DNA of 64,000 nt from Burkholderiales bacterium (lineage in GTDB: Bacteria > Pseudomonadota > Gammaproteobacteria > Burkholderiales > Burkholderiaceae_C): positions 9,850-73,849 of the forward strand of contig JAECRL010000004.1 of NCBI GenBank assembly GCA_016000265.1. Reading direction: 5' to 3'. This document shows positions 10,900-29,894 of the stretch, one piece after another. How positions within the stretch are numbered: the stretch's first letter is position 1; every line of letters starts with the position of its first letter. Below the pieces are notes generated by a model, which was given only the letters and a program-made list of their open reading frames with translations, was not told where the DNA came from and made no database searches. The position numbers and the translations under genes are program-made.

Positions 10900-11457
10900 T
10901 CAGGGCTTGCTGAAGCTCAGGGTGACGTCGCCCAGGTGCACGCCGAACTTGCTCATGGCCGCGCGGTTGAGGACGATGCGGTCGTCGACGCGGTACATCC
11001 AGTCGTCGAACTGGAACTCGAAGACGCGCCCGTCGACCGGCACCTGCATGGTGTATCGAAAGCGCAGGGCGTTGCCGGCCTGCTCGCCGAGTGCGACCCC
11101 GACGATGTCGTCGGCGCGGCCCTCGAAGCGCCCGCCGCCCAGGTCGACGAGCTTCCAGATGCGGCGCTGCCTGGTGCCGTCGCTGTAGGCGAAGTCCTCT
11201 TCCAGCACGCCCGTGTTGCCGCTCCACTTGCCCACCAGGTCCACGGTGAAGCGCTTGACGACGCGACCGGATCGGTCGGTGAACAGGCCGTGCGCCTTGA
11301 CGGGGCCGGTGAAGTAGCCGCGGAAGTCCATGGCGGGCTGCTGCTGGGCGTAGTCGGCCGGGGTGGGCGCGCTGGCGCAGCCTGAGATGACGAGGGCCGA
11401 GCAGGCCAGGGCGGTGGCCGCAGCGATGCGGCGCAAGGAGGGGGCGAGCGAAGGCAT
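10900..11457 (-). CDS. DUF3833 family lipoprotein
   Basis: A 185-residue precursor with a positively charged start, a hydrophobic stretch and a lipobox (LVISGC), so it is a predicted outer-membrane or periplasmic lipoprotein. The mature part shows the DUF3833 pattern: a DFRGYFTGPVKAHGLFTDRSG block, two charged beta-rich repeats, and DDWMYRVDDRIVLNRAAMSKFG. It is the last gene of the minus-strand operon that starts with glutathione peroxidase at 16855. In many proteobacteria DUF3833 sits beside DUF1365 and cyclopropane-synthase genes, which supports a shared role in modifying or protecting membrane lipids. Its exact function is unknown. Confidence 0.85.
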   Translation of the reverse strand: MPSLAPSLRRIAAATALACSALVISGCASAPTPADYAQQQPAMDFRGYFTGPVKAHGLFTDRSGRVVKRFTVDLVGKWSGNTGVLEEDFAYSDGTRQRRIWKLVDLGGGRFEGRADDIVGVALGEQAGNALRFRYTMQVPVDGRVFEFQFDDWMYRVDDRIVLNRAAMSKFGVHLGDVTLSFSKP

Positions 11458-16258: not shown

Positions 16259-16855
16259 TCAGGGACCCAGGGCCTTTTCGATGTCCCGCACCAAGTCCCG
16301 GTCATCGGGGGCCGTCATGCTGCTGTAGGCGTCGAGCACCTTGCCGTCGCGTCCCACGAGGTACTTGTAGAAATTCCACTTGGGCCGGGTGCCCGAGGCC
16401 TTGATCAACTCGGCAAACAGCGGGTTGGCCGCGTCGCCCTTGACGCTGCTCTTGGCGAACATGGGGAACTTGACGCCGTAGGTGCTGGAGCAGAAGTCGG
16501 CGATCTGCTTGGCCGAGCCCGGCTCCTGGCCACCGAAGTCGTTGGACGGGAAACCCAGCACGACCAGGCCCCGGTCCTTGTACTTGGCGTTGAGCGCCTC
16601 CAGGCCCTTGTACTGGTCGGTGAAGCCGCAGTAGCTGGCCGTGTTGACCACCAGCAGCACCTTGCCGCTGTACTGACACAGCGACTGGGGCTTTTCATCC
16701 TGCAGGCGCGGGAAGGTCTTGTTGAGCAGCGCCGGGCAAGCCGCCTCGGGGGCGGCCACCGAAGCGGCCGGCGCGGCGGCCAGGGCGTGCCCAGCCCCTG
16801 TTACGCAGAGGGCACCCAGGCTGAGCAGCGCCAGCCATTGAACTCGCTTTGTCAT
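16259..16855 (-). CDS. Exported glutathione-peroxidase family protein
   Basis: A 198-residue thiol peroxidase with a cleavable signal peptide (ALLSLGALCVTGAGHALA), so it acts in the periplasm. The catalytic block NTASYCGFTDQYKGLEAL contains the peroxidatic cysteine in place of selenocysteine. FPSNDFGGQEPG follows with the conserved Gln, and the WNFYKYLVG motif supplies the Trp and Asn of the active site. It is the first gene of the lipid operon and would reduce lipid or organic hydroperoxides. The ATG at 16855 has an AGAGGA ribosome site. A SigK-like promoter lies about 150 bases upstream. Confidence 0.9.
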   Translation of the reverse strand: MTKRVQWLALLSLGALCVTGAGHALAAAPAASVAAPEAACPALLNKTFPRLQDEKPQSLCQYSGKVLLVVNTASYCGFTDQYKGLEALNAKYKDRGLVVLGFPSNDFGGQEPGSAKQIADFCSSTYGVKFPMFAKSSVKGDAANPLFAELIKASGTRPKWNFYKYLVGRDGKVLDAYSSMTAPDDRDLVRDIEKALGP

Positions 16856-16876
16856 CACGGCATCCTCTTTTGTCTT

Positions 16877-16950
16877 GGTCAAAATAAGCTCATCTACCGA
16901 TATATTAGGGACAACATCGACTCGAAGCAACGATTTGTCCAGGTCAAAAT
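16877..16950. promoter_or_regulatory. Pair of GGTCAAAAT direct repeats in a divergent promoter region
   Basis: The 9-mer GGTCAAAAT occurs at 16877-16885 and again at 16942-16950, in the space between the divergent peroxidase and CarH/LitR-like genes. A third GTCAA lies at 16954. The first copy is very close to the peroxidase start. Direct repeats in such a position fit an operator for the adjacent MerR-type regulator, which in this family controls its own intergenic region. I cannot confirm the binding sequence. Confidence 0.4.
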
Positions 16951-17000
16951 GGCGTCAACCTGAACATCACCCTCCAGCGGGCTTCCCGCCTGTTAACCTC

Positions 17001-17027
17001 ATACGCACTTCTCACGTCGTTGGATGC
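17001..17027 (-). promoter_or_regulatory. SigK-like ECF promoter for the peroxidase/lipid operon
   Basis: Read on the minus strand, GCATCC is followed after 15 bases by GCGTAT. The same layout (CATCC, 15-16 bases, C/G-CGTA) is found upstream of three other genes in this window. It resembles the CCATCC/CCGAAT promoter of mycobacterial SigK. The predicted start would leave a leader of about 140 bases before the peroxidase ATG. Confidence 0.55.
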
Positions 17028-17037
17028 AACCCAATCC

Positions 17038-18033
17038 ATGAACCGCTCCCTGATGATGTCCATCGCCGCCGTCGAGCGTGACACGGGGCTGAGCAAAGAC
17101 ACCTTGCGCGTCTGGGAAAAACGTTATGGCTTTCCCGACCCGGTTCGCGATCCGCAAGGCGAGCGTTGCTACCCGATGGCGCAAATCGAGCGGCTGCGCC
17201 TGATCAAGCGCCTGCTCGACGTCGGCCACCGACCGGGGCGCGTGGTGCCCCTCCCCTTGAGCGACCTGCAGGCCCTGGCCGGGCACAGCGCCGACGCGCA
17301 AGGCCTGGCGGGCCCGGTCTCGCGCAAGGCCGCCCCGCCCCCCACCGTCGCCGTCCTCACGCCCCCACCCGACGCCCCCTCCTGGCTGGCGGAAGCGCTG
17401 GCCTGCGTGGACGCCAACGACGTGCTGGGGCTCAAGCGCCTGCTGGCCCAGGCCGCGCCCTCGCTGGGGCTGGCTCGCTTCATCACCGACGTGGTCGCCC
17501 CCTTGCTGGGCGCCATGGGGGAAGGCTGGCTGCGCGGGCGCTTCCAGGTGCCCCAGGAACACTGGGTCAGCCACTGCCTGCAGCAAAGCCTGCACGCCGC
17601 CATCCACAGCCTGCCGCTGCCCGACGCGGGCCAGGCCCCTCGGGTGCTGCTGAGCACCTTCCCCGGCGAGCCCCACAGCCTGGGCCTGCTCATGGTGGAG
17701 GGCTGGCTCGCCCTGCAGCGGGCCCAGCCGATCAACCTGGGCCCGCAAACCCCTTTGTGGGACCTGGTGCACGCCGCCGCCCACCACCAGGCCGACGTCG
17801 TCGCCCTGAGCTTTTCGGCCTCGGCCCCGGCCACGCTGGTGCAAGACACCCTGGGTGAATTCCGCGCCAAGCTCCCGGCCCACGTCGCCCTGTGGGCCGG
17901 CGGGCGCAACCCCCTGCTGCAGCGGCGCCCCCCCACCGGCGTGCTGCCGCTCGACGACATGACCTCGCTGAGCGCCGCCGTGCAAGCCTGGCGCGCCAGC
18001 GCCCGTCGCCCCCTGCCCGACACCCCTGATTGA
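17038..18033 (+). CDS. CarH/LitR-type B12-dependent photoreceptor regulator (MerR family)
   Basis: A 331-residue transcription factor. Residues 1-70 are a MerR-type winged helix (IAAVERDTGLSKDTLRVWEKRYGFP). After a linker there is a four-helix region with W164 followed exactly nine residues later by E174-H175, the W-x9-EH signature that caps adenosylcobalamin in CarH. The cobalamin-binding fold then shows E211-P-H213-S-L-G, the E-x-H-x-x-G motif that supplies the lower axial histidine. In CarH/LitR proteins the dark, AdoCbl-bound tetramer represses and light disassembles it. The gene is divergent from the peroxidase/lipid operon, a typical LitR target. The ATG at 17038 is preferred, because an earlier TTG at 17020 overlaps the SigK-like site. 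Confidence 0.85.
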   Translation: MNRSLMMSIAAVERDTGLSKDTLRVWEKRYGFPDPVRDPQGERCYPMAQIERLRLIKRLLDVGHRPGRVVPLPLSDLQALAGHSADAQGLAGPVSRKAAPPPTVAVLTPPPDAPSWLAEALACVDANDVLGLKRLLAQAAPSLGLARFITDVVAPLLGAMGEGWLRGRFQVPQEHWVSHCLQQSLHAAIHSLPLPDAGQAPRVLLSTFPGEPHSLGLLMVEGWLALQRAQPINLGPQTPLWDLVHAAAHHQADVVALSFSASAPATLVQDTLGEFRAKLPAHVALWAGGRNPLLQRRPPTGVLPLDDMTSLSAAVQAWRASARRPLPDTPD

Positions 18034-18064
18034 GTGACGCTGTCACGGATCTGCAAACCGCCTG

Positions 18065-18091
18065 ACATCCAATTCGTCACGAAATCCGTAT
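18065..18091 (+). promoter_or_regulatory. SigK-like ECF promoter for the ferritin-like gene
   Basis: ACATCC at 18065-18070 and CCGTAT at 18086-18091, separated by 15 bases and ending 30 bases before the ATG at 18122. This is the best match among the four related sites in the window. A GTCACGGAT string just upstream (about 18053) may be part of another control element. Confidence 0.6.
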
Positions 18092-18121
18092 AGCCTTGTC
18101 GGATCACGCAGGAGAACGCCC

Positions 18122-19006
18122 ATGCTCTACCCCGAACTGTTCAAGCAACTGGAGTCCGCCCGCTGGAACATGGACTCAGACATCCCCTGGGACCGATTCG
18201 ACGCCAGCCAGCTCAGCGATGAGCAGGCGCAGACCATCAAGATGAACGCCATCACGGAATGGGCGGCCCTGCCGGCCACCGAGATGTTCCTGCGCGACAA
18301 CCGCGACGACAGCGACTTCTCCGCCTTCATGAGCGTGTGGTTCTTTGAAGAGCAGAAGCACTCGCTGGTGATGATGGAGTACCTGCGCCGCTTCCGCCCG
18401 GACCTGATGCCGACCGAGGAAGAGCTGCACGAGGTGCGCTTCGAGTTCGACCCGGCCCCGGCGCTGGAGACGCTGATGCTGCACTTCTGCGGCGAGATCC
18501 GGCTGCACCACTGGTACCGCCGCGCCGCCGAATGGCACACCGAGCCCGTCATCAAGGCCATCTACGAAACGCTCGCGCGCGACGAGGCCCGCCACGGCGG
18601 CGCCTACCTGCGCTACATGAAGCGCGCCATGAACAAGTTCGGCGACGAAGCCCGCGCGGCGTTTGCCAAGGTGGGCGTGCTGATGGCGAGTGCGCGTCGC
18701 ACGGCCCAGGCCCTGCACCCCACCAACCTGCACGTCAACGAGAAGCTGTTCCCGCGTGACACGGTGCAGTCGCGCGTGCCCAACCCCGAGTGGCTGGAGA
18801 AGTGGCTGGACACCCAGATCCAGTTCGACGCCGTGTGGGAAAGCAAGGTGGTCGAGCGCATCCTGCACAACCTCGGCTCCCTGATGGGGCGCAGCTTCGC
18901 CAGCGTGCAGGAGCTCAACCGCTTCCGCAAGGAGATGATGCGGTCGGTGGAGCAGGCGGCTGGGGGTGTTGCTGCTGCTTCTGAGGTGAAGACGGCTGGG
19001 GTTTGA
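18122..19006 (+). CDS. Ferritin-like diiron protein, acyl-ACP-desaturase-like
   Basis: A 294-residue all-helical soluble protein. It carries the ligand order expected for a diiron carboxylate centre: a Glu in ITEWAALPATEMF, the first ExxH in FFEEQKH, a Glu in FCGEIRLHHWY, and a second ExxH in ARDEARH. This E...ExxH...E...ExxH layout is shared by soluble acyl-ACP desaturases and related ferritin-like oxygenases. The upstream AGGAGA ribosome site sets the start. A SigK-like promoter precedes it, and the CarH/LitR regulator lies just before it on the same strand. I infer an oxidative step on fatty acyl groups or a protective iron role; the substrate is not visible. Confidence 0.8.
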   Translation: MLYPELFKQLESARWNMDSDIPWDRFDASQLSDEQAQTIKMNAITEWAALPATEMFLRDNRDDSDFSAFMSVWFFEEQKHSLVMMEYLRRFRPDLMPTEEELHEVRFEFDPAPALETLMLHFCGEIRLHHWYRRAAEWHTEPVIKAIYETLARDEARHGGAYLRYMKRAMNKFGDEARAAFAKVGVLMASARRTAQALHPTNLHVNEKLFPRDTVQSRVPNPEWLEKWLDTQIQFDAVWESKVVERILHNLGSLMGRSFASVQELNRFRKEMMRSVEQAAGGVAAASEVKTAGV

Positions 19007-19120
19007 GGCCTCTTGGCATGCGGTGGTTTTGACTTGGCCGCGTGCGCAGGGTTGCGCGCTTTGTCGTGAGAACGCGAGGCGGGGGCTGCGGCGATGTGCG
19101 GTCGGGCTTCAAGGGTGGTG

Positions 19121-19290
19121 GTCCTGCCTTTGGCAGGACTGCCCTGCGGTGCTCGCGGCAAGGTGAGGCCCTCGAACTCACTCCGCGCCCGCTGGGCGCT
19201 GCGCTCAAACAACTCGGGCCAGTCAGATGAGGAAGCGCGCTGACGCGCGCCCACCTTGCCGCTGCGCTCCTCGGCACCACCCAGGCGCCC
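19121..19290 (+). repeat. Multi-hairpin repeat, left copy of an inverted pair
   Basis: About 170 bases, roughly 85 per cent identical by eye to the reverse complement of 19771-19941. It begins with a hairpin GTCCTGCC-TTT-GGCAGGAC and continues through GCGGTGCTCGCGGCAAGGTG, a second hairpin GCGCCC-gct-GGGCGC, CTCAAACAACTCGGGCC, a GC-only hairpin near 19235 and CCACCTTGCCGCTGCGCTCC. In the right copy the first stem has changed bases on both sides and still pairs. It may be a dispersed extragenic element of this genome. Confidence 0.65.
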
Positions 19291-19384
19291 GCCCGCACAG
19301 CGCCTTCGCCCCTTTTCGCCTCGCTGGTGGCGTGCAACGGGTGTTGGCTTGCGTGGGTTGGGTGGCTTGATCGCGACCCTGCTT

Positions 19385-19560
19385 GGCCTGCGATGGTTTT
19401 TGGGCGGCTCACCGAGCTTTTTGGGCGACACGCCGAGCTGTTTGAGCGGTGCGCCGAGCAATTTGGGTGGCGCGCGGAGATCTCGGCTCGGCACCCCGGG
19501 TGTTTTGCTCGGGGCGCGGGGCTTTTTGCTCGGCGGGCCGAGCTCGGAGCTCGGTGAATG
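19385..19560. repeat. Degenerate 24-base tandem repeat
   Basis: A run of imperfect 24-base units of the type (g)ccgagctttttgggcg... In one plus-strand frame it reads as an eight-residue pattern (ELFGRHAE, ELFERCAE); in a minus-strand frame it reads LGAPLKQL, LGVSPKKL. It sits between the two inverted multi-hairpin elements. All frames stay partly open only because the unit length is a multiple of three, so I do not call a gene. Confidence 0.55.
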
Positions 19561-19770
19561 CACCTCGGTGGGGCGTGCGCGGGTGCTGGAGCTCGGCATT
19601 TGTCCGAAATCACTCGCCTCATGTCTGGAAAAGACTGGCGCGTGGGTGTCGGAGCCCGGGAGACGTCGTGAATTGAGAGCTGGCCGGTCAATTCCAGCGA
19701 GGTGACTGACTCACGCATCGCTCCCCCCGCACGCAACAAGCGGGGCACCAGGAGCGAAGCCGGCCTGGGC

Positions 19771-19941
19771 TCGGGCGCCTTGTGGGCGCCGAGGAGCGCA
19801 GCGGCAAGGTGGGCGCGCGCAGCGCGCTTGCGTATCCAGCTGGCCTGAGTTGTTTGAGCGGAGCGCCCACAGGGCGCGCAGCGAGTTCGAAGGCCCCACC
19901 TTGCCGCGAGCACCGCAGGGGAGTCACGCCAAGGGCGTGAC
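19771..19941 (-). repeat. Multi-hairpin repeat, right copy of an inverted pair
   Basis: The inverted partner of 19121-19290. Its terminal hairpin is GTCACGCC-AAG-GGCGTGAC at 19923-19941, versus GTCCTGCC/GGCAGGAC in the left copy: two base-pair changes in the stem are each compensated on the other side. The internal GCGCCC/GGGCGC hairpin and the TTGTTTGAGCG and CACCTTGCCGCGAGCACCGC blocks are also shared. Compensation suggests that the folded structure is kept by selection or by mobility requirements. Confidence 0.65.
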
Positions 19942-20100
19942 CGCCCACTTGGCGCCCGAGCCCAGGCCGGCGCAGCACCGCCCCGCGCTGCACCGACAAA
20001 TCGAGCCACCCCAGGCAGGCAAAGAAAAAACGCCCGACACCGTGGCACAGACCCGAATCGCCTTCAAACCCGAGCCGATTTGTGAAGGCATGCAAAGCAT

Positions 20101-20127
20101 GCATCCCCTCACGCTGAGGCGGCGTAA
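20101..20127 (+). promoter_or_regulatory. SigK-like ECF promoter for the fasciclin gene
   Basis: GCATCC at 20101-20106 and GCGTAA at 20122-20127 with a 15-base spacer, 60 bases before the fasciclin ATG. A GCATGC-aaa-GCATGC inverted repeat overlaps the upstream box. The link between a SigK-type sigma factor and a fasciclin gene parallels mycobacterial SigK control of the fasciclin proteins MPT70 and MPT83. Confidence 0.55.
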
Positions 20128-20187
20128 GGGACACCACGCACATCGATCGGTGTGCGAACCCTGATCAACGCAACCCAAGGAAACAGC

Positions 20188-20739
20188 ATGAAAGCCTTCG
20201 CCCTCGCCTCCGCCATCCTGGCCGCCTCGATGACCCTGGCCGCAGGCGCCGCCCGCGCCGAAGTCATGGTGGGAGGCGCCGCGATGCACCCCACCAAGGA
20301 CATCGTGGACAACGCCGTGAATTCCAAGGACCACACCACCCTGGTGGCCGCGGTCAAGGCCGCCGGCCTGGTCGACACCCTCAAGGGCAAGGGCCCGTTC
20401 ACGGTGTTCGCCCCGGTGAACGCCGGCTTCGCGGCCCTGCCCCCTGGCACCGTCGACAACCTGCTCAAGCCCGAGAACAAGCCCGCCTTGACCAAGGTGC
20501 TGACCTACCACGTGGTGGCCGGCAAGTTCGACGCCAAGGCCGTGACCCAGGCCATCCAGGCCGGTGGCGGCAAGGCTTCGCTGAAGACGGTGTCCGGCGG
20601 CACCCTGACCGCCTCGACAGCGGGCGGCAAGGTCATCGTCACCGATGAGAACGGCGGCCAGGCCACCGTCACCATCGCCGACGTGATGCAGTCCAACGGC
20701 GTGATCCACGTCGTCGACAAGGTGCTGCTGCCGAAGTGA
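20188..20739 (+). CDS. Exported fasciclin (FAS1) domain protein
   Basis: A 183-residue protein with a signal peptide ending near AAGAARA, so it is secreted or periplasmic. The mature part is one complete FAS1 domain: IVDNAVNSKDHTTLVAAVKAAGLVD, the FTVFAPVNAGFAALP H1 box, the LTYHVVAGKFDA central motif and the VIHVVDKVLLPK H2 box. FAS1 domains mediate adhesion or bind small hydrophobic ligands. The ATG at 20188 has an AAGGAAA ribosome site; an earlier in-frame start would spoil the signal peptide. Its promoter matches the SigK-like consensus seen here, and SigK/RskA-like genes lie about 7.5 kb away. Confidence 0.93.
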   Translation: MKAFALASAILAASMTLAAGAARAEVMVGGAAMHPTKDIVDNAVNSKDHTTLVAAVKAAGLVDTLKGKGPFTVFAPVNAGFAALPPGTVDNLLKPENKPALTKVLTYHVVAGKFDAKAVTQAIQAGGGKASLKTVSGGTLTASTAGGKVIVTDENGGQATVTIADVMQSNGVIHVVDKVLLPK

Positions 20740-20744
20740 TGAAG

Positions 20745-20762
20745 GGGCGCCTGCCAGCGCCC
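20745..20762. terminator. GC hairpin between convergent genes
   Basis: GGGCGC-ctgcca-GCGCCC directly after the fasciclin stop and before the end of the convergent CoA-transferase gene. It lacks a clear T-tract on either side, so its strength as a terminator is uncertain. Confidence 0.4.
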
Positions 20763-20792
20763 GCTTGAGGCCGACTCGGACGCCGAGCGGCG

Positions 20793-21839
20793 TCAGGCGA
20801 CCTGCTGCCAGGCCTGCACCGAGGCCTGGCCGGCGAACAGCGGGTGGGCCTGCGCCTCCTCCAGCGTCAGCACCGGCGTGACGCACGCGTCGGCCCCTTC
20901 AAACCGGTGCGCCCAGAACGCCAGCGGCTGTGAAGCCACCAGCGCGGCCACCTCGGCCTTGAGCGATGCGCAGTCTGGCGTGCCCGGCAACGCACCGCGC
21001 TGCCAGTGGCGGTTGACCCAGTCGGGTCGCTCGAACACCTCGCACGCGGCCTTCCAGAACTTGAACTCCAGCGCGCCGACCGCCAGGTGGCGGCCATCGG
21101 CCGTGGCGTACAGGTTGTAGCAAGGCAGGCCCCCGTTGAGCATGTCCTCGCCCGCCCTCGGCCGGCGCCCCAGGATGGGCGCCAGCAAGGTGGCCGTCGA
21201 CTTGGGCATGACCAGGTGGGCGTGCAGCCCGTGCGTCATGCTCACGTCGATGTGACGGCCCTTGCCCGTGCGCCGAGACTCGATCACCGCCGCCAGGATG
21301 GCGATGGTGGCCATCGAACTGCCCGCGGCCAGGTCGCCCCACTGCACGTTGGACAAGGCCAGCTCGCCCGTGGGGGCGCGCACCTGATCCAGCACGCCCG
21401 ACAGCGCCATGAAGTTCAGGTCATGCCCGGCCTTGTTGGCCCACGCCCCCGTCTGCCCGTAACCCGTGATGGAGACCATCACCAGCTTCGGGTTGAGCGC
21501 GTGCAGGGTTGCTGCGTCCAGCCCCATGCCTTGCAGCACGCCGGGGCGGAAGCTGTCGACCATCACGTCGGCGGTGGCCAGCCAGTCGCGCAGGGTGGCG
21601 AGGTCGGCCTCGTTGCGGAAGTCGACCTTGCGGCACTCCTTGCCGTGGTTGAGCGCCTCGAACAGCGTGCCCAGCGGGCGCGCGGGGTCGCCCTCGGGCG
21701 GCTCGACCTTGACGATCTCGGCACCCAGGTCGGCCAGCATGCGCGTGCTGAACGGCCCCGGCAGGTTGCGCGTGAGGTCGATCACGCGCAGGCCTGAGAG
21801 CAAGCCGCTCAAAGGCCCCGCGGCTGCGCCCCCGCTCAC
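20793..21839 (-). CDS. CaiB/BaiF family III CoA-transferase (racemase-like)
   Basis: A 348-residue enzyme of the class III CoA-transferase / alpha-methylacyl-CoA racemase family. Marks include [33 protein letters not shown] at the N-terminus and [13 protein letters not shown], whose Asp is the usual catalytic position, followed by [11 protein letters not shown]. The start overlaps the stop of the FadJ-like gene (21836-21839), so it is the last gene of the beta-oxidation operon. An epimerase role on 2-methyl-branched acyl-CoA, or a CoA-activation role, would both suit that pathway. No choice can be made from sequence alone. Confidence 0.88.
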
Positions 21840-23986
21840 ACCGCGTCCTCGAAGCGGCCGCCTTCTTGCGCCATCTTCACGACGATGGCGGCGGGCTCGA
21901 AGCGCGGGCCGTAGGCTTGGGCCAGCTCACGCGCACGCTCGACGAACTTCTTGGCGCCCACGGCGTTGATGAACTGCAGCGCACCACCCTGGTTGGGCGC
22001 GAAGCCCCAGCCGAAGATCGAGCCGATGTTGGTGTCGGCCACCGAACGCACGACCTTCTCTTCATAGCAGCGCGCGGCCTCGTTGGCTTGCACGTACAGC
22101 AGGCGGTCCACCAGCTCTTGCTGGGTGGGCTGGTTCGCCACCGGCGGGTAGAGCTGGGTCAGCTCGGGCCACAGGGTCTTTTCCTTGCCGTTGTAGTCGT
22201 ACAGGCCCTTGCCGGTCTTCTTGCCGATGCGGTTGTGCGTGCCACCGATGTTCTGCAGCACGGCGGCGGCGGGGTGCTCGGGCAGCACCTTGCCTTCGGC
22301 GGCCATGTCCTTCTTGGTCTGCTCGGCGATGTGCAGCGACAGGCCCAGCGAGACCTCGTCTTGCAGCGCCATCGGGGGCATGGGCATGCCCGCCTTCAGG
22401 CCGGCCACTTCGATGGAGCGCGGGTGCACGCCCTCGCCCAGCATGGCCAGGCCTTCCATGATGTAGGTGGCGAACACGCGCGAGGTGTAGAAGCCGCGGC
22501 TGTCGTTGACCACGATCGGGGTCTTGCCGATCTGCAGCACGTAGTCGAAACCACGCGCCAGGGTCTCATCAGACGTCTTCTCGCCCACGATGATCTCGAC
22601 CAGCGGCATCTTGTCCACGGGCGAGAAGAAGTGCAGGCCGATGAAGTTGGCCGGGCGCTCGCTGGCCGTGGCCAGGCCGGTGATGGGCAGCGTCGAGGTG
22701 TTCGAGGCGTACACCGCGTCGGCGGCGATGACGGCCTCCGACTTCTGCGTGCACACCGCCTTGATGGCGCGGTCTTCGAACACTGCCTCGATGACGAGGT
22801 CGCATCCCTTCAGGTCGTCATAGGACGTGGTGGGCTGGATGCGGGCCAGCAGCGCGTCGCGCTTGTCGGCCGTGCTGCGGCCACGCGAGATGGCCTTGTC
22901 CAGGATGCCCTGCGAATAGGCCTTGCCCTTCTCGGCATTCTCTTGCGTCGTGTCCAGCAGCACGACGTCGATGCCGACCTTGGCCGACACGTACGCGATG
23001 CCCGCGCCCATCATGCCGGCGCCCAGGATGCCGACCTTCTTGACCTTGGATTCAGCAAAGCCCTTGGGACGCGACTGGCCCTTCTTGATGGCGTTGAGCT
23101 GGTGCCACAGCGTGCCGATCATGTTCTTGCTGGTCTGCGAGACCACGCACGCGGCGAAGTAACGCGACTCGACCTGCGAGCCCGCGTCGAAGTCCAGCAG
23201 GCAGCCTTCAAACAGGCAGCTCATGATGTGGGTGAGCGCCGGGTAGTTGCCGTGCGCCTTGGCGTTGGCCATCGAGGGCGCGATGGCGAGCACCTGCACC
23301 ACGGCCGGGCTCTTGCTGTCGCCACCGGGGATGCGGAAGCCCTTGTTGTCCCAGGGCTGCGAGGCCTTGGGGTTGGCCTTGCACCAGGCCTTGGCCTTGG
23401 CCAGCATGTCTTCGCGGTTGGCGGCCAGCTCGGTCACCAGGCCCATGTCCTTGGCTTTGGCCGCGGTCAGTTCCTTGCCTTGCGTGATCAGCTCGAAGCT
23501 CTTCTGGATGCCGATCATGCGGGGCACGCGCTGGGTGCCGCCACCGCCGGGCAGCAGGCCCAGCTTGACCTCAGGCAGGCCGAACTTGGCCTTGGGGTCG
23601 TCGATGGCGATGCGGGCGTGGCAAGCCAGGGCCAGCTCCAGGCCACCGCCCAGGGCCGTGCCGTTGAGCGCGGCCACCACGGGCTTGCCGCACTTTTCCA
23701 TGCGGCGCATCATGCCCTTGAGGTCTTCACACAGCTTGTAGGCCTCTTCGGCCGAGGTGATCTGCGTGAGCTGGTCGATGTCGGCGCCGACGATGAAGGT
23801 CGACTTGGCCGAGGTGATGACCAGGCCCTTGAGGTTCGCGTCGGTTTCCAGTTGCTCGACCAGGCCGGCGAAGGGCACGACGAGCGTCGGGTTGAGCACG
23901 TTCATCGCGCGACCCGGCATGTCGATGGTGACCAGGCCGATGCCGTCGGCGTCGATGTCCAGGCTGAATGCTTGAGTTTGAGTCAT
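21836..23986 (-). CDS. FadJ/FadB-like enoyl-CoA hydratase / 3-hydroxyacyl-CoA dehydrogenase
   Basis: A 716-residue bifunctional beta-oxidation enzyme. The N-terminal crotonase domain (about 1-190) has [13 protein letters not shown] and [15 protein letters not shown] with the catalytic Glu region [15 protein letters not shown]. The central domain starts with the NAD-binding [16 protein letters not shown] and continues through [13 protein letters not shown] and the [14 protein letters not shown] histidine region. The C-terminal dehydrogenase repeats follow. The ATG at 23986 has a GGGAGG ribosome site; the frame is open further upstream inside the thiolase gene but that part is out of character. 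It works with the thiolase upstream. Confidence 0.92.
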
Positions 23987-24003
23987 GGTGTGTGCCTCCC
24001 GGA

Positions 24004-25209
24004 TCAGACGCGTTCGATGATGGTGGCGATGCCCATGCCGGCACCGATGCACAGCGTGGCCAAGGCGGTGGACTTGCCCGTGCGCTCCAGCTCGTCCAGG
24101 GCCGTGCCCAGGATGATGGCGCCGGTGGCACCCAGCGGGTGGCCCATGGCGATGGAGCCGCCGTTGACGTTGACGCGGTCCATCGACACGCCGAGGTCCT
24201 TGGCGGTCTTCATGGGCACGGTGGCAAACGCCTCGTTGATTTCCCACAGGTCGATGTCGCCCGGGGTCATGCCCAGCTTGTTGAGCGCCTTCTTGCAGGC
24301 CGGCGTCGGGCCGGTCAGCATGATGGTGGGCTCGGAGCCGCACTCGGCCGTCATCAGCACGCGGGCGCGGGGCTTCAGACCTGCCTTGAGGCCGGCTTCC
24401 TTGCTGCCCAGCAGCACCAGGGCGGCGCCGTCGACGATGCCCGAGGAGTTGCCGGCGTGGTGCGCGTGGATGACCTTTTCGATGGTCGTGTACTTGTCGA
24501 GCGCGGTGGCGTCGAAGCCCATGGTGCCCATCATCTCGAACGAGGGCATCAGCTTGGACAGCGACTCGACCGAGGTGCCGGGGCGGATGGTCTCGTCGCG
24601 GCCCAGCATCAGCATGCCGTTGATGTCACGCACGCCGATGACCGACTTGTCGAAGCGACCCTCGGCCTGCGCGGCGGCGGCACGGCGGTGCGACTCGGCG
24701 GCGTAGGCGTCGAGGTCAGCGCGAGAGAAGCCTTCCAGCGTGGCGATCAGGTCGGCGCTGATGCCCTGGGGCACGAAGGCCGTGCCGCTGTTGATGCGGG
24801 GGTCCATCACCCAGGCGCCACCGTCGGAGCCCATGGGCCAGCGGCTCATGCTTTCCACGCCACCGGCGACGACCATGTCATCGAGGCCGGCGCGGATCTT
24901 GGCCGTGGCCATGTTGATGGCTTCCAGGCCCGAGGCACAGAAGCGCGACAGCGTCACACCGGCGACGGACTCGGCCCAGCCGGCGTCCAGCACGGCGGTG
25001 CGGGCGATGTCGGCGCCCTGCTCGCCCACCGGGGTCACGCAGCCGAGGATGACGTCGTCGACCAGCGAGGTGTCGAGGTGGTGACGCTGTTGCAGGCCTT
25101 GCAGCAGGGTGCGCAGCAGCCACACGGGCGTGGCCTGGTGCAGGCTGCCGTCTTTCTTGCCCTTGCCGCGCGGGGTGCGAACGGCGTCGAAAATGTAGGC
25201 TTCGATCAT
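24004..25209 (-). CDS. Acetyl-CoA C-acyltransferase (FadA-like thiolase)
   Basis: A 401-residue degradative thiolase that splits 3-ketoacyl-CoA with CoA to acetyl-CoA and a shortened acyl-CoA. The acyl-accepting cysteine sits in [12 protein letters not shown], the C-terminal active-site His in [18 protein letters not shown], and the second Cys in LCIGAGMG. Length is usual for the family. It lies 17 bases upstream of the FadJ-like gene and 63 bases downstream of the acyl-CoA dehydrogenase on the same strand. Confidence 0.93.
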
Positions 25210-25272
25210 GGGAAGCTCCTTCGTTGAATGGGGTTCTGGGAGGGCCCGTGAGCAGGGCTCAGGGCCGCTGGA

Positions 25273-26433
25273 TCACAGGAAGCGCGAGGCCAGTTCCTTC
25301 ATGATCTCGTTGGTGCCGCCGTAGATGCGCTGCACGCGCGAGTCGGCCCACAGGCGGGCGATCGGGTATTCCTTCATGTAGCCGTAGCCACCGAAGAGCT
25401 GCAGGCATTCGTCGATCAGCTTGCACTGGTTGTCGGTGATCCAGTACTTGATGAGTGCTGCGCGGTCCACGCCCAGCTCGCCCTTGAGGTGGGCGACCAT
25501 GGCGGCGTCCACCAGGGCGCGCGAGGCCAGCAGCAGGGCCTGGCACTCGGCCAGCTTGAAGCGCGTGTTCTGGAAGCTGAAGATGGGCTTGCCGAAGGCC
25601 TTGCGCTCCTTCGTGTACTCCAGCGTGACCTTCATGGCGTACTCCATGGCGGCGATGCCGGCCAGGGCCACCAGCAGGCGCTCTTGCGGCAGCTCCTGCA
25701 TCAGCTGGAAGAAGCCCATGCCCTCTTGCTCGCCGATCAGGTTGTGCTTGCTGACCACCACGTCGTCGAAGAACAGCTCGGAGGTGTCTTGCGCCTCCAT
25801 GCCGATCTTGTCGAGGTTGCGGCCACGGCGGAAGCCCGGGGCTTCGTCCGTCTCGACCACGAACAGCGAGATGCCTTGCGCGCCGGCGTCCTTGCTGGTC
25901 TTGCAGACGACGATGACCAGGTTGGCCAGCTGGCCGTTGGTGATGAAGGTCTTGCTGCCGTTGATGGTGTAGGACTCGCCATCGGCGGACTTCTGCGCGT
26001 GGGTGCGCACGCCCTGCAGGTCGCTGCCGGTGCCGGGCTCGGTCATGGCGATGGCGCTGATGAGCTCGCCGGTGGCCAGCTTGGGCAGCCAGCGCTTCTT
26101 CTGCTCTTCGGTGCCGTAGTGCAGGATGTAGGGCGCGACGATGCCAGAGTGCAGCGAGCCGCCGAAGCCGCCGATGCCGGCTTCGCCCTGGGCCAGCACC
26201 AGCGCGGCTTCGTGGCCGAAGTCACCGCCGCCACCGCCGTACTGCTCGGGCATCGAGGCGCACAGGAAGCCGTTGGCGCCAGCGTCTTCCCAGGCCTGGC
26301 GGTCCATCATGCCCTGGGCGCGCCAGGCTTCGTCTTTCGGCTGCCATTGCTCGGTCATGAAGCGCTTGGCCGACTCGAACACCATGGTGTGTTCTTCGGT
26401 CATCCAGGCGGGGGCAAAGTTTTGAATGGGCAT
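25273..26433 (-). CDS. Acyl-CoA dehydrogenase
   Basis: A 386-residue FAD enzyme for the first step of beta-oxidation. It shows AMTEPGTGSDLQG (FAD/substrate loop), TFITNGQLANLVIV, the FGKPIFSFQNTRFKLAE segment and the C-terminal QIYGGTNEI-type motif (RIYGGTNEIMKEL). The position holding the catalytic Glu of medium-chain enzymes (YEGT) is Gly here, so the base probably sits elsewhere, as in long-chain and isovaleryl-type members. The ATG at 26433 with a GAGGAGA ribosome site is chosen over an upstream start at 26514. It is the first gene of the operon, divergent from a TetR regulator. Confidence 0.9.
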   Translation of the reverse strand: MPIQNFAPAWMTEEHTMVFESAKRFMTEQWQPKDEAWRAQGMMDRQAWEDAGANGFLCASMPEQYGGGGGDFGHEAALVLAQGEAGIGGFGGSLHSGIVAPYILHYGTEEQKKRWLPKLATGELISAIAMTEPGTGSDLQGVRTHAQKSADGESYTINGSKTFITNGQLANLVIVVCKTSKDAGAQGISLFVVETDEAPGFRRGRNLDKIGMEAQDTSELFFDDVVVSKHNLIGEQEGMGFFQLMQELPQERLLVALAGIAAMEYAMKVTLEYTKERKAFGKPIFSFQNTRFKLAECQALLLASRALVDAAMVAHLKGELGVDRAALIKYWITDNQCKLIDECLQLFGGYGYMKEYPIARLWADSRVQRIYGGTNEIMKELASRFL

Positions 26434-26502
26434 GGGGGTGTCTCCTCGATCCGTGTCGGGTTGGGTTCGTTTTCGGGCACCACGACATCGGCCACCGCCA
26501 TT

Positions 26503-26520
26503 CGGTAATTTCAATTACCG
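26503..26520. promoter_or_regulatory. Palindromic operator candidate upstream of the acyl-CoA dehydrogenase
   Basis: CGGTAAT-TTCA-ATTACCG, a perfect 7-base inverted repeat with a 4-base centre, 70 bases before the dehydrogenase ATG. It is AT-rich against a GC-rich background and lies where promoter elements are expected. The binding protein is unknown; the nearby TetR regulator is one candidate. Confidence 0.5.
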
Positions 26521-26618
26521 TTGGTGTAAACCCTGAATTCCAGCGAGGAATCGGCTGCGACAAGCGCCTGACGCCCTGGGAACCAGCCATGCATCGTGGT
26601 GCACAACGGGTGCTGATG

Positions 26619-26634
26619 TTGACGTTAACGTCAC
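26619..26634. promoter_or_regulatory. LiuR-type operator in the beta-oxidation/TetR intergenic region
   Basis: TTGACGTTAACGTCAC differs at one base from the perfect palindrome TTGACGTTAACGTCAA found at 44161-44176 in front of the carboxylase operon next to liuR. It lies about 95 bases before the TetR start and 186 bases before the dehydrogenase start. I infer that LiuR also binds here. Confidence 0.6.
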
Positions 26635-26665
26635 AGAAGGGCAAGGGGGCTTCACCAAAATTTGC

Positions 26666-26677
26666 GAACGACCGTTC
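26666..26677. promoter_or_regulatory. TetR-type operator candidate
   Basis: GAACGACCGTTC, a 12-base inverted repeat with a 2-base non-pairing centre, 50 bases before the TetR gene start, in the AT-rich part of the divergent region. The size and position suit autoregulation by the adjacent TetR protein and control of the divergent beta-oxidation operon. A second half-site-like CGTTCCGAAC follows at about 26692. Confidence 0.5.
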
Positions 26678-26727
26678 ATTTGGTACGATTTCGTTCCGAA
26701 CCGGAAAGCCCCACTGCCCTGCGCTGC

Positions 26728-27375
26728 ATGCAAGCCCCCAGCCCCCGAACCACCCCACCCACGACCTCCGACGAGCGCCGCGCCGCGCTCGGCAGCATGC
26801 GAGCCGACACACTCCACCGCATCGAGCAGGCGGTGCTGACGCTGTTCTCCAGCCGGGACTTCCACGAGGTCACGCTGCTGGACGTGGCCAAGCAGGCGCG
26901 CGTGTCCCTGCAGACCATCTACAAGTACTTCGGCAGCAAGGAGGTGCTGGTCTACGCCATGCTCGACGTGATGCTGGGCCGCCTGGCCGAGCGCATGATC
27001 GACCACCTGCAGGGCATCGACGACGCGCGCGAGCGGCTGCGCAAAACCTTCTGGGTCACGCTGGACTACATGGACAAGCACCCGGCGGTGATGCTGCTGC
27101 TGTTCACCGCGGTGCCGGTGTCGCGCCACCAGAACATCCGCATCTACGAGAGCCCGGAGCTGATGCAGGCCTTCATGGGCGTCTTCAAGGACGGCCAGGC
27201 GCGCGGCGTGCTCAACCGGCGCGTGTCGGCCAAGATCCTGCTGGACGTGTTCATGGGCATCATCGGCCGGGTGGTGCTCATGCACATCGTGCGACGCGAG
27301 AAGCAAACGCTCATCGACCAGTTCGACGAGCTTTTCCACATCGTGTGGCGGGCGCTGTCAGCCGACGAGGGCTGA
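26728..27375 (+). CDS. TetR family regulator, probably of fatty acid catabolism
   Basis: A 215-residue repressor. The N-terminal helix-turn-helix is typical (LTLFSSRDFHEVTLLDVAKQARVSLQTIYKYFGSKEVL). The rest is a helical ligand-binding domain without recognisable signature. It is transcribed away from the acyl-CoA dehydrogenase/thiolase/FadJ operon, with three palindromes between. The layout suits an acyl-CoA-responsive repressor comparable to PsrA or FadP of other proteobacteria, though identity with either is not established. The ATG at 26728 is preferred; an in-frame start at 26662 would cover the operator. Confidence 0.85.
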   Translation: MQAPSPRTTPPTTSDERRAALGSMRADTLHRIEQAVLTLFSSRDFHEVTLLDVAKQARVSLQTIYKYFGSKEVLVYAMLDVMLGRLAERMIDHLQGIDDARERLRKTFWVTLDYMDKHPAVMLLLFTAVPVSRHQNIRIYESPELMQAFMGVFKDGQARGVLNRRVSAKILLDVFMGIIGRVVLMHIVRREKQTLIDQFDELFHIVWRALSADEG

Positions 27376-27395
27376 GGCGCCCTCGCCGGCGGCGG

Positions 27396-28151
27396 TCACA
27401 GCCGAACGGCCTTGCCCACGAAGAGGATGGGGCCCGAGGGGCGGTTGTACGGCGAGCCGCCTTCGGGCTCCAGGGTCAGCTCGAACAGGGTGCGGTCGGC
27501 CAGGCCCGGCAGCTGCTTGACGGGCACGACCACCACCTGGCCGGGTTTGACCAGGCCCAGCGAGGTCGGGCCCTGGGCGCCTTCCGGCTTGGTCCAGAAC
27601 TGCATGGTCTTGCCCGCGGGGATGACGGCGCCCTCGCCGACCTGAACCAGGCGGATGGCGTCGGTGCCCACCGTCTCGACCACCCAACCGGCGGACTTGT
27701 CGGGCGATTGCAGCACGGCCAGGTAGCGCGGGGCCTGGGCGACCACCTCCCCCGAGCTCGCGCCCGGCAGGGGCCCGCGCAGGAGCAGCACCGCCATCAC
27801 CACCGCCGCGGCCAGGGCGCCGCCGCTGAGCAGGCGCCAGAAGCGCACGCTCGACCACACGGCGTCGTTGGCCGCTTCCTGGGCGACGTCGCCGTCCCCC
27901 CGTGGCGGGGCCGCCGCCACCGGGGTCGACAGCCGAGCGGCGATGCGCGGCCACAAGCCGGGCGGCACGGCCACGGGCGGCAGGCGCCGGGTCAGCCCCA
28001 GCAGGCGGTCCTGCCAGGCGTAGACCTCGCCGCGCAGGGCGGTGTCGGTGGCCAGGGCGGCGTCCATGGTGCGTTTTTCTTCGGCACCCAGGGTGCCCAG
28101 GACGTATTCACCCGCGTTGGCGGTGCGTTCCTGAGGGTCTTGCAAATTCAT
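27396..28151 (-). CDS. RskA-like anti-sigma factor
   Basis: A 251-residue membrane anti-sigma factor. The cytoplasmic N-terminus has the zinc-independent anti-sigma domain (ANAGEYVLGTLGAEEKRTMDAAL...VYAWQDRLLGL). One membrane helix follows (LLSGGALAAAVVMAVLLL). The periplasmic RskA C-terminal domain has LVQVGEGAVIPAGKTMQFW and ends EPEGGSPYNRPSGPILFVG. The start overlaps the sigma stop by ATGA (28148-28151), so the pair is coupled. It would hold the SigK-like sigma factor inactive until a signal triggers regulated proteolysis. Confidence 0.92.
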   Translation of the reverse strand: MNLQDPQERTANAGEYVLGTLGAEEKRTMDAALATDTALRGEVYAWQDRLLGLTRRLPPVAVPPGLWPRIAARLSTPVAAAPPRGDGDVAQEAANDAVWSSVRFWRLLSGGALAAAVVMAVLLLRGPLPGASSGEVVAQAPRYLAVLQSPDKSAGWVVETVGTDAIRLVQVGEGAVIPAGKTMQFWTKPEGAQGPTSLGLVKPGQVVVVPVKQLPGLADRTLFELTLEPEGGSPYNRPSGPILFVGKAVRL

Positions 28152-28720
28152 GAGAGGCACTCCTTCAGCGCCAGCAGGCCGCGTCGGATCCAGGACTTCA
28201 CCGTGCCGATGGGTTTGCTCAATCGGGCGGCGATCTGGTCGTGCGTGTAGCCTTCGACGTAAGCGTCGATCACGCACTGGCGTTTGGGGTCGTCCAGCTG
28301 GGCCAGGCAATGGGCCAGCGCGGCTTCGTCGTGGGGCAGGTCCTCGGCCTGGGGGGCCGCCACCGCTTCGGCCACGGCCTGAAAGTCGTCACCCAGCGAG
28401 ACCTCGTGGCGCACCTTGCGGACCTCGTCGAGCGCGCGGTGGCGCGCGACGGTGTAGATCCAGCCCCGGCCCGAGCCCAGCTCACGCTGGAAGCTGCCGG
28501 CGCGCTGCCAGACCTGCATGAAGGCCTCTTGCAGCACGTCTTCGGCCTGTTCGCGGTCGCGCACGATGCGCAGGATCACGGCCAGCAACCAGCGCGATTC
28601 ACGCTCGTACAGGGCCTTGAGGGCGAATCGCTCGCCCCGCGCGCAGGCCTCCAGGGCCGCTTCGTAATCGAAGTCATCCGGGCGCCGCTCGGGGGGCGCG
28701 GCAGAGGTCAACTGGTCCAT
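28148..28720 (-). CDS. ECF sigma factor, SigK-like
   Basis: A 190-residue extracytoplasmic-function sigma factor. Region 2 has DREQAEDVLQEAFMQVWQRAGSF and WIYTVARHRALDEVRK; region 4 has VIDAYVEGYTHDQIAARL and the helix-turn-helix KPIGTVKSWIRRGL. It is followed at once by an RskA-like anti-sigma gene, the arrangement of SigK/RskA. Four CATCC-N15/16-(C/G)CGTA sites in the window, one before a fasciclin gene, are candidate targets. A weak CATCC box lies upstream of the gene itself (about 28769) but lacks a good second box. Confidence 0.92.
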   Translation of the reverse strand: MDQLTSAAPPERRPDDFDYEAALEACARGERFALKALYERESRWLLAVILRIVRDREQAEDVLQEAFMQVWQRAGSFQRELGSGRGWIYTVARHRALDEVRKVRHEVSLGDDFQAVAEAVAAPQAEDLPHDEAALAHCLAQLDDPKRQCVIDAYVEGYTHDQIAARLSKPIGTVKSWIRRGLLALKECLS

Positions 28721-28771
28721 CGTTTGTGATCAGGCTGGGATCGAGGGGGCCGTCCACCTCGACCCGCTGGA

Positions 28772-28787
28772 TGTGCCACGTGTCACA
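28772..28787. promoter_or_regulatory. Near-palindrome upstream of the sigma gene
   Basis: TGTGCCACGTGTCACA, symmetric at 14 of 16 positions, about 50 bases upstream of the sigma start and between it and the end of the DUF4394 gene. No T-tract follows, so it looks more like a protein-binding site than a terminator. The binding protein is unknown. Confidence 0.4.
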
Positions 28788-28821
28788 CATCACATCGGGT
28801 CGGGGCTTGCAGTGCGACGGA

Positions 28822-29763
28822 TCAGTCCTGGTACAGGGGCACCGCGATGTCGATGACGACTATACCGGCGGGCAGCGCACCGCGGGGGGTGGCCTTGCCC
28901 GTCAGGAGGTCAAGCTTGTGCAGGATGGCCACCCCATCGGCGCCCACGGTGGTCACCAGCGCGCGGTTGCCTCGGGTCACGCCATCGCGCACGCTGCTGT
29001 GGATGTCGAATCCGCTGAGGGCCGAGGCATCCAGCGTGAGCTTGCCGGTGGACACCAGCGAGCCGGCGTTGGGGGGCGATTGCAGCGCGACCTGGTCGAG
29101 CGCGGCGTCCAGCACGAACAGGGTCGTGGCCGTGGTCGTCGCGCTCAGGTCGTTGTTGGTGTAGGCCGCGCCCACCACGCCCAGCGCGGGCGTGCCGGCG
29201 GTGTAGTTCAGGGCGCCATCGGTGAGGGTCACGCCCCCGGCGTTGACGTTGTGGCGCAGGTTCTGGCCGGTGTTGCTGACGATGCGCAGGCGGTCGGCCG
29301 CCGGGTTGAAGTCGACACCAAAACGCGTGCCCTCCAGGGCCGGCCCGATGCGGTTGACCAGGGTGGCCACGGCCGAGGTGGTGTCCAGGGTGTAGACGCC
29401 GCCGGCGTCGCCCACGCCATACAACAGGCCGTCCTGCACGCGGTAGTCGATGCCCACGAGGCGGGTGTCGACCTGCAGGCCGTTGACGGCCCCGATGACG
29501 CGGGCCTTGCGGGGCTGCTTTTCGTTGAAGCAGACCAGTCGGCCGTCGTCGGTCAGGGCGGCCACGGACAGGGCGCGATCGGCTTCGTCATGGTGATCGT
29601 GATCACGCGGGGAGGCCGCGGGCTGGCCGCTGGCGCACAGAGGCGTGTGGGGCGCGCGGGACGCGTCGGCCTGTGCCGACAGGGCGCAGCCCGCCAGGAT
29701 GAGGGCGGCGGCCAGGCGAGGCAAGGACGGGCGGGGACGGGGCGAGGCGGTGAGCGGGTTCAT
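28822..29763 (-). CDS. Exported DUF4394 domain protein
   Basis: A 313-residue secreted protein with an N-terminal signal (LAAALILAGCALSAQA). The mature region is a repeated beta-propeller-like domain (DUF4394): LVGIDYRVQDGLLYGVGDAGGVYTLD, RFGVDFNPAADRLRIVSNTGQNLRHN, and YTAGTPALGVVGAAYTNND. A His/Asp-rich stretch (DHDHHDE) near the mature N-terminus could bind metal. Its function is unknown. It lies directly upstream of the sigma/anti-sigma pair and has a SigK-like promoter. The ATG at 29763 carries an AGGAGA ribosome site. Confidence 0.88.
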   Translation of the reverse strand: MNPLTASPRPRPSLPRLAAALILAGCALSAQADASRAPHTPLCASGQPAASPRDHDHHDEADRALSVAALTDDGRLVCFNEKQPRKARVIGAVNGLQVDTRLVGIDYRVQDGLLYGVGDAGGVYTLDTTSAVATLVNRIGPALEGTRFGVDFNPAADRLRIVSNTGQNLRHNVNAGGVTLTDGALNYTAGTPALGVVGAAYTNNDLSATTTATTLFVLDAALDQVALQSPPNAGSLVSTGKLTLDASALSGFDIHSSVRDGVTRGNRALVTTVGADGVAILHKLDLLTGKATPRGALPAGIVVIDIAVPLYQD

Positions 29764-29803
29764 GCGGGTCTCCTGGGTGGGTGCACGATGGGATGCCCCT
29801 TCA

Positions 29804-29831
29804 CTACGGCGCGAGGGGCCCAAACGGATGC
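29804..29831 (-). promoter_or_regulatory. SigK-like ECF promoter for the DUF4394 gene
   Basis: On the minus strand GCATCC is followed after 16 bases by CCGTAG, ending 40 bases before the DUF4394 ATG. The spacer is one base longer than in the other three sites. Both boxes otherwise fit the shared pattern. Confidence 0.5.
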
Positions 29832-29894
29832 AGCGGGCGCCACATCCGTGACGAAACCCTCAAGTCACGCCGCACAGCGACCGAAATCCCGGAC

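Follow-up and report, generated by a model that had tools for sequence, protein, structure and literature searches.

The locus and its four sites

The DNA described here is a 64,000-nucleotide stretch of a Burkholderiales genome (assembly GCA_016000265.1, contig JAECRL010000004.1, positions 9,850 to 73,849), referred to below as the window; between positions 16,259 and 29,831 it carries genes for a glutathione peroxidase (gpx), a diiron protein, a fasciclin-domain protein and a DUF4394 protein, together with a SigK-like extracytoplasmic function (ECF) sigma factor, SigK1, and its RskA-like anti-sigma factor, RskA1. The original prediction, made from the sequence of the window, had placed a shared motif, CATCC-N15/16-SCGTA (S being C or G), in front of the first four genes, 30-150 bases from their start codons and in the right orientation, and a pattern search re-finds all four sites at most one base from the positions proposed. 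The exact matches lie at 17002-17026 (minus strand), 18066-18090 (plus), 20102-20126 (plus) and 29805-29830 (minus), and the last base of CGTA is 147 bases from the likely start codon of gpx (ATG 16855), 32 from that of the diiron gene (ATG 18122), 62 from that of the fasciclin gene (ATG 20188) and 42 from that of the DUF4394 gene (ATG 29763), every site pointing towards its gene. The number of such sites expected in the window by chance is 0.21 (standard deviation 0.43, maximum 2, from 100 dinucleotide shuffles), and none of the 100 shuffles reached four. The sites and the genes central to them are the following, with signal peptides judged by eye:

17002..17028, minus strand: site 1, predicted ECF promoter of the second class, TGCATCC-N16-CGTATGAG, upstream of gpx
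16259..16855, minus strand: glutathione peroxidase (PF00255), apparent signal peptide
18063..18090, plus strand: site 2, ECF-like promoter with a variant -35, TGACATCC-N16-CGTATAGC, the weakest of the four
18122..19006, plus strand: ferritin-like/AurF-like diiron protein by family match, present in 116 of 200 family genomes
20100..20126, plus strand: site 3, predicted ECF promoter of the second class, TGCATCC-N16-CGTAAGGG, upstream of the fasciclin gene and conserved in orthologues
20188..20739, plus strand: fasciclin-domain protein (PF02469, 119 bits), apparent signal peptide
29805..29832, minus strand: site 4, predicted ECF promoter of the SigK1 class, TGCATCC-N17-CGTAGTGA, upstream of DUF4394-sigK1-rskA1
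28822..29763, minus strand: DUF4394 protein (PF14339, 236 bits), N-terminus resembling a lipoprotein signal (LAGC)
28148..28720, minus strand: SigK1, SigK-like ECF sigma factor by profile and structure-sequence matches, in the window clade of the tree
27396..28151, minus strand: RskA1, RskA-like membrane anti-sigma factor (PF10099, 73.5 bits, cut-off 29.4), overlapping sigK1 by 4 bases

The extended -35 element reads TGCATCC at sites 1, 3 and 4 and TGACATCC at the diiron site, whose -35 is thereby different. Comparison with relatives in the genus and family gives good support for sites 1, 3 and 4, and thus for at least three of the four, as ECF-sigma promoters of the form TGCATCC-N16/17-CGTA. 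The wider proposals, namely ECF promoters, a SigK/RskA-type system, oxidative-stress and lipid genes behind the sites and a conserved fasciclin promoter, are all supported.

Two SigK/RskA-like pairs

The assignment of a SigK-like ECF factor and an RskA-like anti-sigma factor to positions 27396-28720 is borne out by the match of RskA1 to the RskA_C profile and by the nearest solved sigma factor to SigK1, which is Mycobacterium tuberculosis SigK (4NQW; E 2.9e-22, 82 bits), followed by SigL (70 bits). In the 4NQW alignment, cysteines of SigK1 fall on both cysteines of M. tuberculosis SigK, 133 and 183, a conserved pair described as a SigK feature (PMC7509140). SigK1 lies below the NCBIfam cut-off for SigK (PRK09646, 131.4 bits against 226; best model PRK12537, 215.4 against 261) and is therefore called SigK-like and not SigK; the placements of mycobacterial SigK/RskA among groups ECF18 and ECF19 differ between the two published sources.

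The genome (G000; 3.56 Mb, 93% complete) holds a second SigK/RskA pair, SigK2 and RskA2, on contig C6 at about 12.1-14.1 kb (locus L263), followed by a DUF3455 gene that has its own TGCATCT-N16-CGTAGTGA site. In a tree of 121 SigK-like proteins, with bootstrap values not fully settled and some long branches, the window type accounts for 42 rows, a genus clade that includes the C6 paralogue for 24 and a type-F clade for 18. A (T/C)G(A/C)ATC(C/T)-N16-CGTA site precedes sigK itself in 17 of the 18 type-F loci.

Site 4 and two classes of -10 element

Upstream of the operon that begins with DUF4394 in the window, a sense-strand site with at most one mismatch is found in 31 of 36 sigK loci of relatives (the 31 strongest of 68 family genomes with an RskA match and 5 of 19 named loci), one of which, L111, falls outside the window clade of the tree; the whole 650 kb of these loci contain 39 sense and 9 antisense matches. 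Within the genus, 12 of the 17 genomes with SigK1 (window included) have the site no more than 330 bp from sigK or DUF4394. The first gene of the operon varies, being DUF4394 in some relatives and DUF3455 in others. The -10 element of site 4, CCGTAGT, fits the conserved promoter of the DUF4394-sigK-rskA operon, and the best-supported assignment, on these comparisons, is that SigK1 would regulate its own operon through site 4. In two Variovorax loci (L066 near 9158 and L067 near 9169), a divergent TGCATCC-N17-CGTA site stands opposite the DUF3455-sigK operon and faces a gene that is ferritin-like by eye.

The base that follows GTA separates two classes of promoters: it is G in 36 of 38 SigK1-type operon promoters, in 1 of 17 type-F promoters, in 2 of 20 fasciclin promoters and in 1 of 11 gpx promoters. 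Sites 1 and 3 (GCGTATG and GCGTAAG) thus differ from site 4, and log2 odds for the SigK1 class are +3.9 for the DUF4394 site, -8.7 for the gpx site and -8.2 for the fasciclin site. Leave-one-out placement is correct for 35/38 SigK1-type promoters and 35/37 others, among rows that are related to one another and with classes defined after inspection of the data. The window sites were held out, and the classifier leaves aside the fasciclin sites of G006, G039 (spacing 17), G068, G069, G097 and G177, the genomes without a match (G020, G088, G105, G148 and G206), one near-identical Variovorax row, a duplicate G213 row and L111.

A parallel shift is seen at the DUF3455 gene beside the C6-type pair (24 loci, 10 of them without DUF3455), whose -10 reads CGTAGT in all seven genomes with SigK1 (window included) and in one of seven without it (p 0.005, uncorrected for kinship); that single genome, G233, is 82% complete.

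The fasciclin promoter

In the genus, the box is present with at most one mismatch in 7 of 8 fasciclin orthologues, two non-orthologues (G209 and G232), both without the box, being set aside. Among 24 family loci (L144-L167) at about 65% identity and above, a sense match with at most two mismatches precedes the gene in 20 (5 exact) and an antisense match in 2; G105, G088, G148 and the first copy in G020 have none. Five family loci of lower identity, also without the box, were excluded as non-orthologues, and G020 and G071 have second copies, which were inspected separately. The orthologues retain the motif in genomes that have no window-type SigK. In G229 and G224 the fasciclin gene lies about 0.6 kb directly upstream of a C6-type sigK (sigK2) on the same strand, and it lies downstream of a type-F sigK by about 1.4 kb in G198 and about 2.6 kb in G177.

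Across 26 genomes (the window counted, the weak sites of G006, G069, G097 and G177 kept, and G020, G068, G088, G105, G148 and G206 left out), the variable base of the fasciclin -35, TGC or TGA, tracks the presence of a type-F SigK (p 0.004) and not that of SigK1 (p 0.70). This base equals that of the type-F sigK promoter in 11 of 12 genomes. In the window, a long intergenic stretch (19040-20000), containing apparent inverted repeats as judged by eye, precedes the fasciclin gene.

Site 1 and the lipid operon

Downstream of gpx on the minus strand lies a run of genes whose domain families and order match those of the Rhodobacter operon RSP1091-1087, a comparison made without direct alignment to the Rhodobacter proteins; on this footing the operon resembles the furan-fatty-acid operon, and a furan fatty acid may be its product. 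The features around site 1 are:

14870..16231, minus strand: flavin amine-oxidase-type protein (PF01593), ufaD-like by operon comparison with RSP1091-1087
14082..14873, minus strand: DUF1365 protein (PF07103), presumed ufaO-like from position, size and operon order
12769..14085 (start approximate), minus strand: cyclopropane/methyl fatty acid synthase (PF02353, 272.8 bits), ufaM-like
11492..12772, minus strand: GPH-type symporter, RSP1089-like (PF13347, 143 bits, cut-off 27; TIGR00792, 68 bits, below cut-off)
10900..11457, minus strand: DUF3833 protein (PF12915)
17038..18033, plus strand: LitR/CarH-like MerR regulator with B12-binding domains (PF13411, PF02607, PF02310), divergent from gpx
16902..16930, minus strand: putative second gpx promoter, sigma70-like, TTGCTT-N17-TAATAT; TAATAT also in G206, G208, G213 and G223
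16934..16949, minus strand: TTTTGACCTGGACAAA element, candidate operator of LitR or another regulator, flanking the sigma70-like promoter
16868..16884, minus strand: second such element, TTTTGACCAAGACAAAA, flanking the same promoter

An exact gpx box occurs in 11 of the 23 genus genomes with gpx (window included). In a set of 90 gpx/ufaD loci from 156 matching genomes, of which 89 remain after removal of L262 as a duplicate of L137, ATCC-N15-SCGTA is found upstream of the gene 17 times in sense and 5 times in antisense orientation, while the sense counts for spacings N13, N14, N16, N17 and N18 are 0, 0, 0, 0 and 3. In type-F genomes that have both sites, the variable -35 base at gpx/ufaD is that of the sigK promoter in G099, G047, G057 and G137; the exceptions are G012 and G109, which have TGACTCC, and G187, which disagrees. 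In three loci (L206, L218 and L222, in G069, G105 and G088) a different ECF gene adjoins a diverged ufaD with a (G/A)ATCC-N16-CGTA site, an arrangement that resembles that of ECF11.

Two genus genomes with gpx, G223 and G237, have no SigK-like match at the threshold used (E 1e-12), and on the decay of the boxes where SigK is absent they give one case for and one against: in G223 the gpx-litR intergenic region retains the GGACAAAACGTTGT, TAATATAG and TTTTGACCAAGACAAAA elements seen in its relatives, with the ECF boxes gone, and in G237 (99% complete) a perfect gpx box is still present.

As in LitR/CarH light-responsive operons, a MerR gene encoding B12 domains runs divergently next to a lipid operon. 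The pattern TTTTGACC-N2-GACAAAA is present at least once in 16 of 122 genomes and twice in 5; unlike the sites of LitR systems, these repeats do not fit the published Pseudomonas LitR-type consensus, T(G/A)TACA-N12-TGTA(C/T)A (PMC9758184), and were rejected as LitR operators.

Site 2 and the diiron gene

Of the 17 genomes in the genus whose diiron gene could be assessed (window included), 5 have GACATCC-N16-CGTA exactly, and G200, G223 and G232 have it with one mismatch, the -10 in G223 reading CGTT. Upstream of 37 family diiron loci, ATCC-N15-SCGTA gives 9 sense and 6 antisense matches. The site scores -4.0 log2 odds for the SigK1 class and only -0.3 against type-F promoters alone; it may be a third type of promoter or may not depend on an ECF factor. 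A sigma70 reading is disfavoured, TTGACA lying 21 bases from TATAGC in G033, and matches that fall within litR in relatives, antisense to that gene, were taken as conserved coding sequence.

Motif occurrences in the whole genome

The original prediction had proposed that its motif be scanned across the genome. As a genome-wide predictor the short pattern CATCC-N15/16-SCGTA fails, with 13 matches against 18 for the reversed motif used as control, but the longer TGCATCC-N15-SCGTA with at most one mismatch is found 13 times (7 exact) against 2 in the control. All seven exact sites lie upstream of a same-strand open reading frame (ORF) with a family match, a count that stands without a random-site baseline. 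The genes concerned encode the glutathione peroxidase, the fasciclin protein, a CMAS-type methyltransferase, a BD-FAE hydrolase, a DUF4331 protein, an ATP-grasp protein and a catalase-family protein. By the -10 criterion, the catalase and hydrolase sites (CGTAGTGG) are predicted to belong to SigK1, and the CMAS and DUF4331 sites (CGTAAGT) to the second factor. Two of the six one-mismatch sites precede the DUF3455 gene beside the second pair and a LuxR-type regulator; the latter site (C6:567126-567152) is about 26 bases upstream of its gene, which has an autoinducer-binding domain. Export signals are apparent by eye at the N-termini of the gpx, fasciclin, DUF4394, DUF3455, catalase and DUF4331 proteins.

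Which sigma factor reads which site

The arrangement that best accounts for these observations, at a probability of roughly 0.55, is one in which SigK1 drives its own DUF4394-sigK1-rskA1 operon from site 4, and sites 1 (for the gpx-ufaD-ufaO-ufaM-symporter-DUF3833 operon) and 3 (for fasciclin) form a sister class, with the same TGCATCC, N16 and a -10 of GCGTA(A/T)G, more likely read by the second SigK/RskA pair encoded on the other contig, although the two factors may overlap. As anti-sigma factors of the membrane, RskA1 and RskA2 would free their sigma factor upon an envelope or oxidative signal, after which RNA polymerase would transcribe the genes for exported peroxidases, fasciclin, DUF proteins and furan-fatty-acid enzymes.

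Besides the limits given above for the classifier and for the ORF count (in this GC-rich genome, long antisense ORFs also span the seven sites), several observations weigh against such a division. G206, which has both pairs, shows no fasciclin box within 195 bp upstream even at two mismatches, and in G020 a second copy of the fasciclin gene reads TGAATCC against TGCATCC at that genome's type-F sigK, which brings the agreement down to 11 of 13; these two genomes reduce confidence both in this assignment and in the evolutionary reading given below. No box was found within 330 bp of sigK or DUF4394 in the SigK1 genomes G214, G217, G229, G230 and G235; sigK2 in this genome has no such promoter found upstream; the DUF3455 site that adjoins sigK2 here is of the SigK1 class; and among the 11 gpx sites of the genus, 2 fall marginally on the SigK1 side. 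An association between the gpx box and SigK1, tried as a line of support, was not found: in the genus the exact box is found in 8 of 14 genomes with SigK1 and 3 of 9 without (p 0.40), and in the family set the box with at most one mismatch is found in 6 of 29 with and 10 of 61 without (antisense 1 and 3). The perfect gpx box of G237 belongs with these points.

The original prediction had treated the four sites as one regulon, and the assignment of every one of them to SigK1 is not supported, site 4 being the best-supported case. That SigK1 serves the whole set, or at a minimum sites 1, 3 and 4, and SigK2 something else, is unlikely: the common -35, the close clustering of the sites, the nearness of the fasciclin gene to sigK1, some 7.5 kb apart in the window and similarly placed in G206, G208 and G213, the exact gpx box in more than half of the SigK1 genus genomes with gpx, and the lack of a matching promoter at sigK2 would all be expected from it, but the -10 class differs between sites 1/3 and site 4, the DUF3455 -10 switches with the presence of SigK1, the fasciclin gene adjoins sigK2 in two congeners, and its box is found in genomes without SigK1 and is missing from the four family loci named above, all in SigK1 genomes. 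It is more doubtful still that another ECF factor (for instance one encoded on C1, C8 or C18) reads the gpx/ufa and diiron promoters and that SigK1 and SigK2 share only a -35 look-alike. ATCC-N16-CGTA is indeed not confined to a single ECF group, ECF11 using TGATCC-N16-CGTA (PMC5507510), G237 retains its box, and a different ECF gene stands beside the diverged ufaD of G069, G105 and G088; against this, the -35 base at gpx/ufaD follows the sigK promoter in four type-F genomes, with the three exceptions named, and in this 93% complete genome no listed sigma gene adjoins a ChrR-type cupin gene, the only Cupin_7 matches (C12:122 kb and C2:302-303 kb) lying away from all of them. Chance matches in GC-rich DNA, with no regulon behind them, are very improbable and already disfavoured for sites 1, 3 and 4, and site 2 may be such a match; the unenriched short pattern, and for site 2 the 9 sense and 6 antisense matches at diiron loci, speak for chance, whereas the local excess in the window, the enrichment of the longer motif, the fixed spacing upstream of gpx/ufaD and the conservation of boxes in relatives whose spacers have diverged speak against it.

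Relation to known systems

The mycobacterial SigK/RskA system, originally put forward as the parallel, is a weaker match than RpoE-ChrR, whose promoter and targets fit better; the closest known system would, by analogy, be an RpoE-ChrR regulon with its sigma pair exchanged. RpoE-ChrR (ECF11; Rhodobacter, Shewanella, Pseudomonas syringae) has targets that parallel those proposed here: a furan-fatty-acid operon, a CFA-type methylase, a periplasmic glutathione peroxidase and fasciclin. In Rhodobacter, RSP1091 (UfaD), RSP1090 (UfaO), UfaM and RSP1089 are furan-fatty-acid genes of this regulon (PMC7380195, PMC7074977), and a fasciclin gene (RSP_1409) stands in the R. sphaeroides RpoE target table (PMC7074977). 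In Shewanella, TGATCC/CGTA promoters place a periplasmic glutathione peroxidase (pgpD), and by prediction also a cfa operon, under RpoE2 (PMC4336711), and PMC10949492 cites an Azospirillum case of fasciclin under RpoE-ChrR control. Putative counterparts of ufaD, ufaO, ufaM and the symporter, as judged from domain families and gene order, occur together here. The ECF11 consensus, as given for P. syringae (PMC5507510), is absent from the window sites, three of which read TGCATCC, with one extra C in the -35, and one TGACATCC. Unlike in RpoE-ChrR, the sigma and anti-sigma factors here are of SigK/RskA type and come as two paralogous pairs.

As a tentative evolutionary reading, which we hold to be possible rather than probable, the two paralogous pairs of this betaproteobacterial genus took over a conserved singlet-oxygen/furan-fatty-acid regulon run elsewhere by RpoE-ChrR, sharing the -35 and splitting the targets by the -10 (CGTAGT against CGTA(A/T)G), with genes such as DUF3455 moving between the factors as SigK1 was gained or lost. 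The locus would then offer a natural experiment both in how ECF factors with near-identical promoters split a regulon and in the replacement of one sigma/anti-sigma system by another over the same stress genes, and it supplies testable hypotheses on what controls the furan-fatty-acid genes and the DUF4394, DUF3455 and DUF4331 proteins. Among the matches listed from open-licence PMC text, no paper was recognised as a description of this regulon in betaproteobacteria, and none of those listed for the DUF names searched contains any of these names.

With the SigK-RskA-MPT70/83 systems of mycobacteria and Yersinia enterocolitica, the locus shares a SigK-like sigma factor, an RskA_C anti-sigma factor, a fasciclin target and the cysteine pair; it differs in that SigK1 is below the NCBIfam cut-off, in its peroxidase and lipid targets, and in a -10 of CGTA set against the mycobacterial box as quoted in the original prediction. 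A pairing of SigK/RskA with fasciclin is probable here, as proposed, but it would not be the first in a proteobacterium, the Y. enterocolitica case having been published (PMC7509140). A SigK/RskA-like pair is likewise known from the photooxidative response of R. capsulatus, where the products of the photooxidatively induced rpoE-chrR are 34% identical to SigK and 25% to RskA (PMC7074977). Given these two precedents, the system is a variant and not a new kind. Like R. capsulatus, this genome has SigK/RskA-like pairs; unlike R. capsulatus, whose table in that source has no homologue of RSP_1091-1087 or of fasciclin, it has both of these alongside the pairs.

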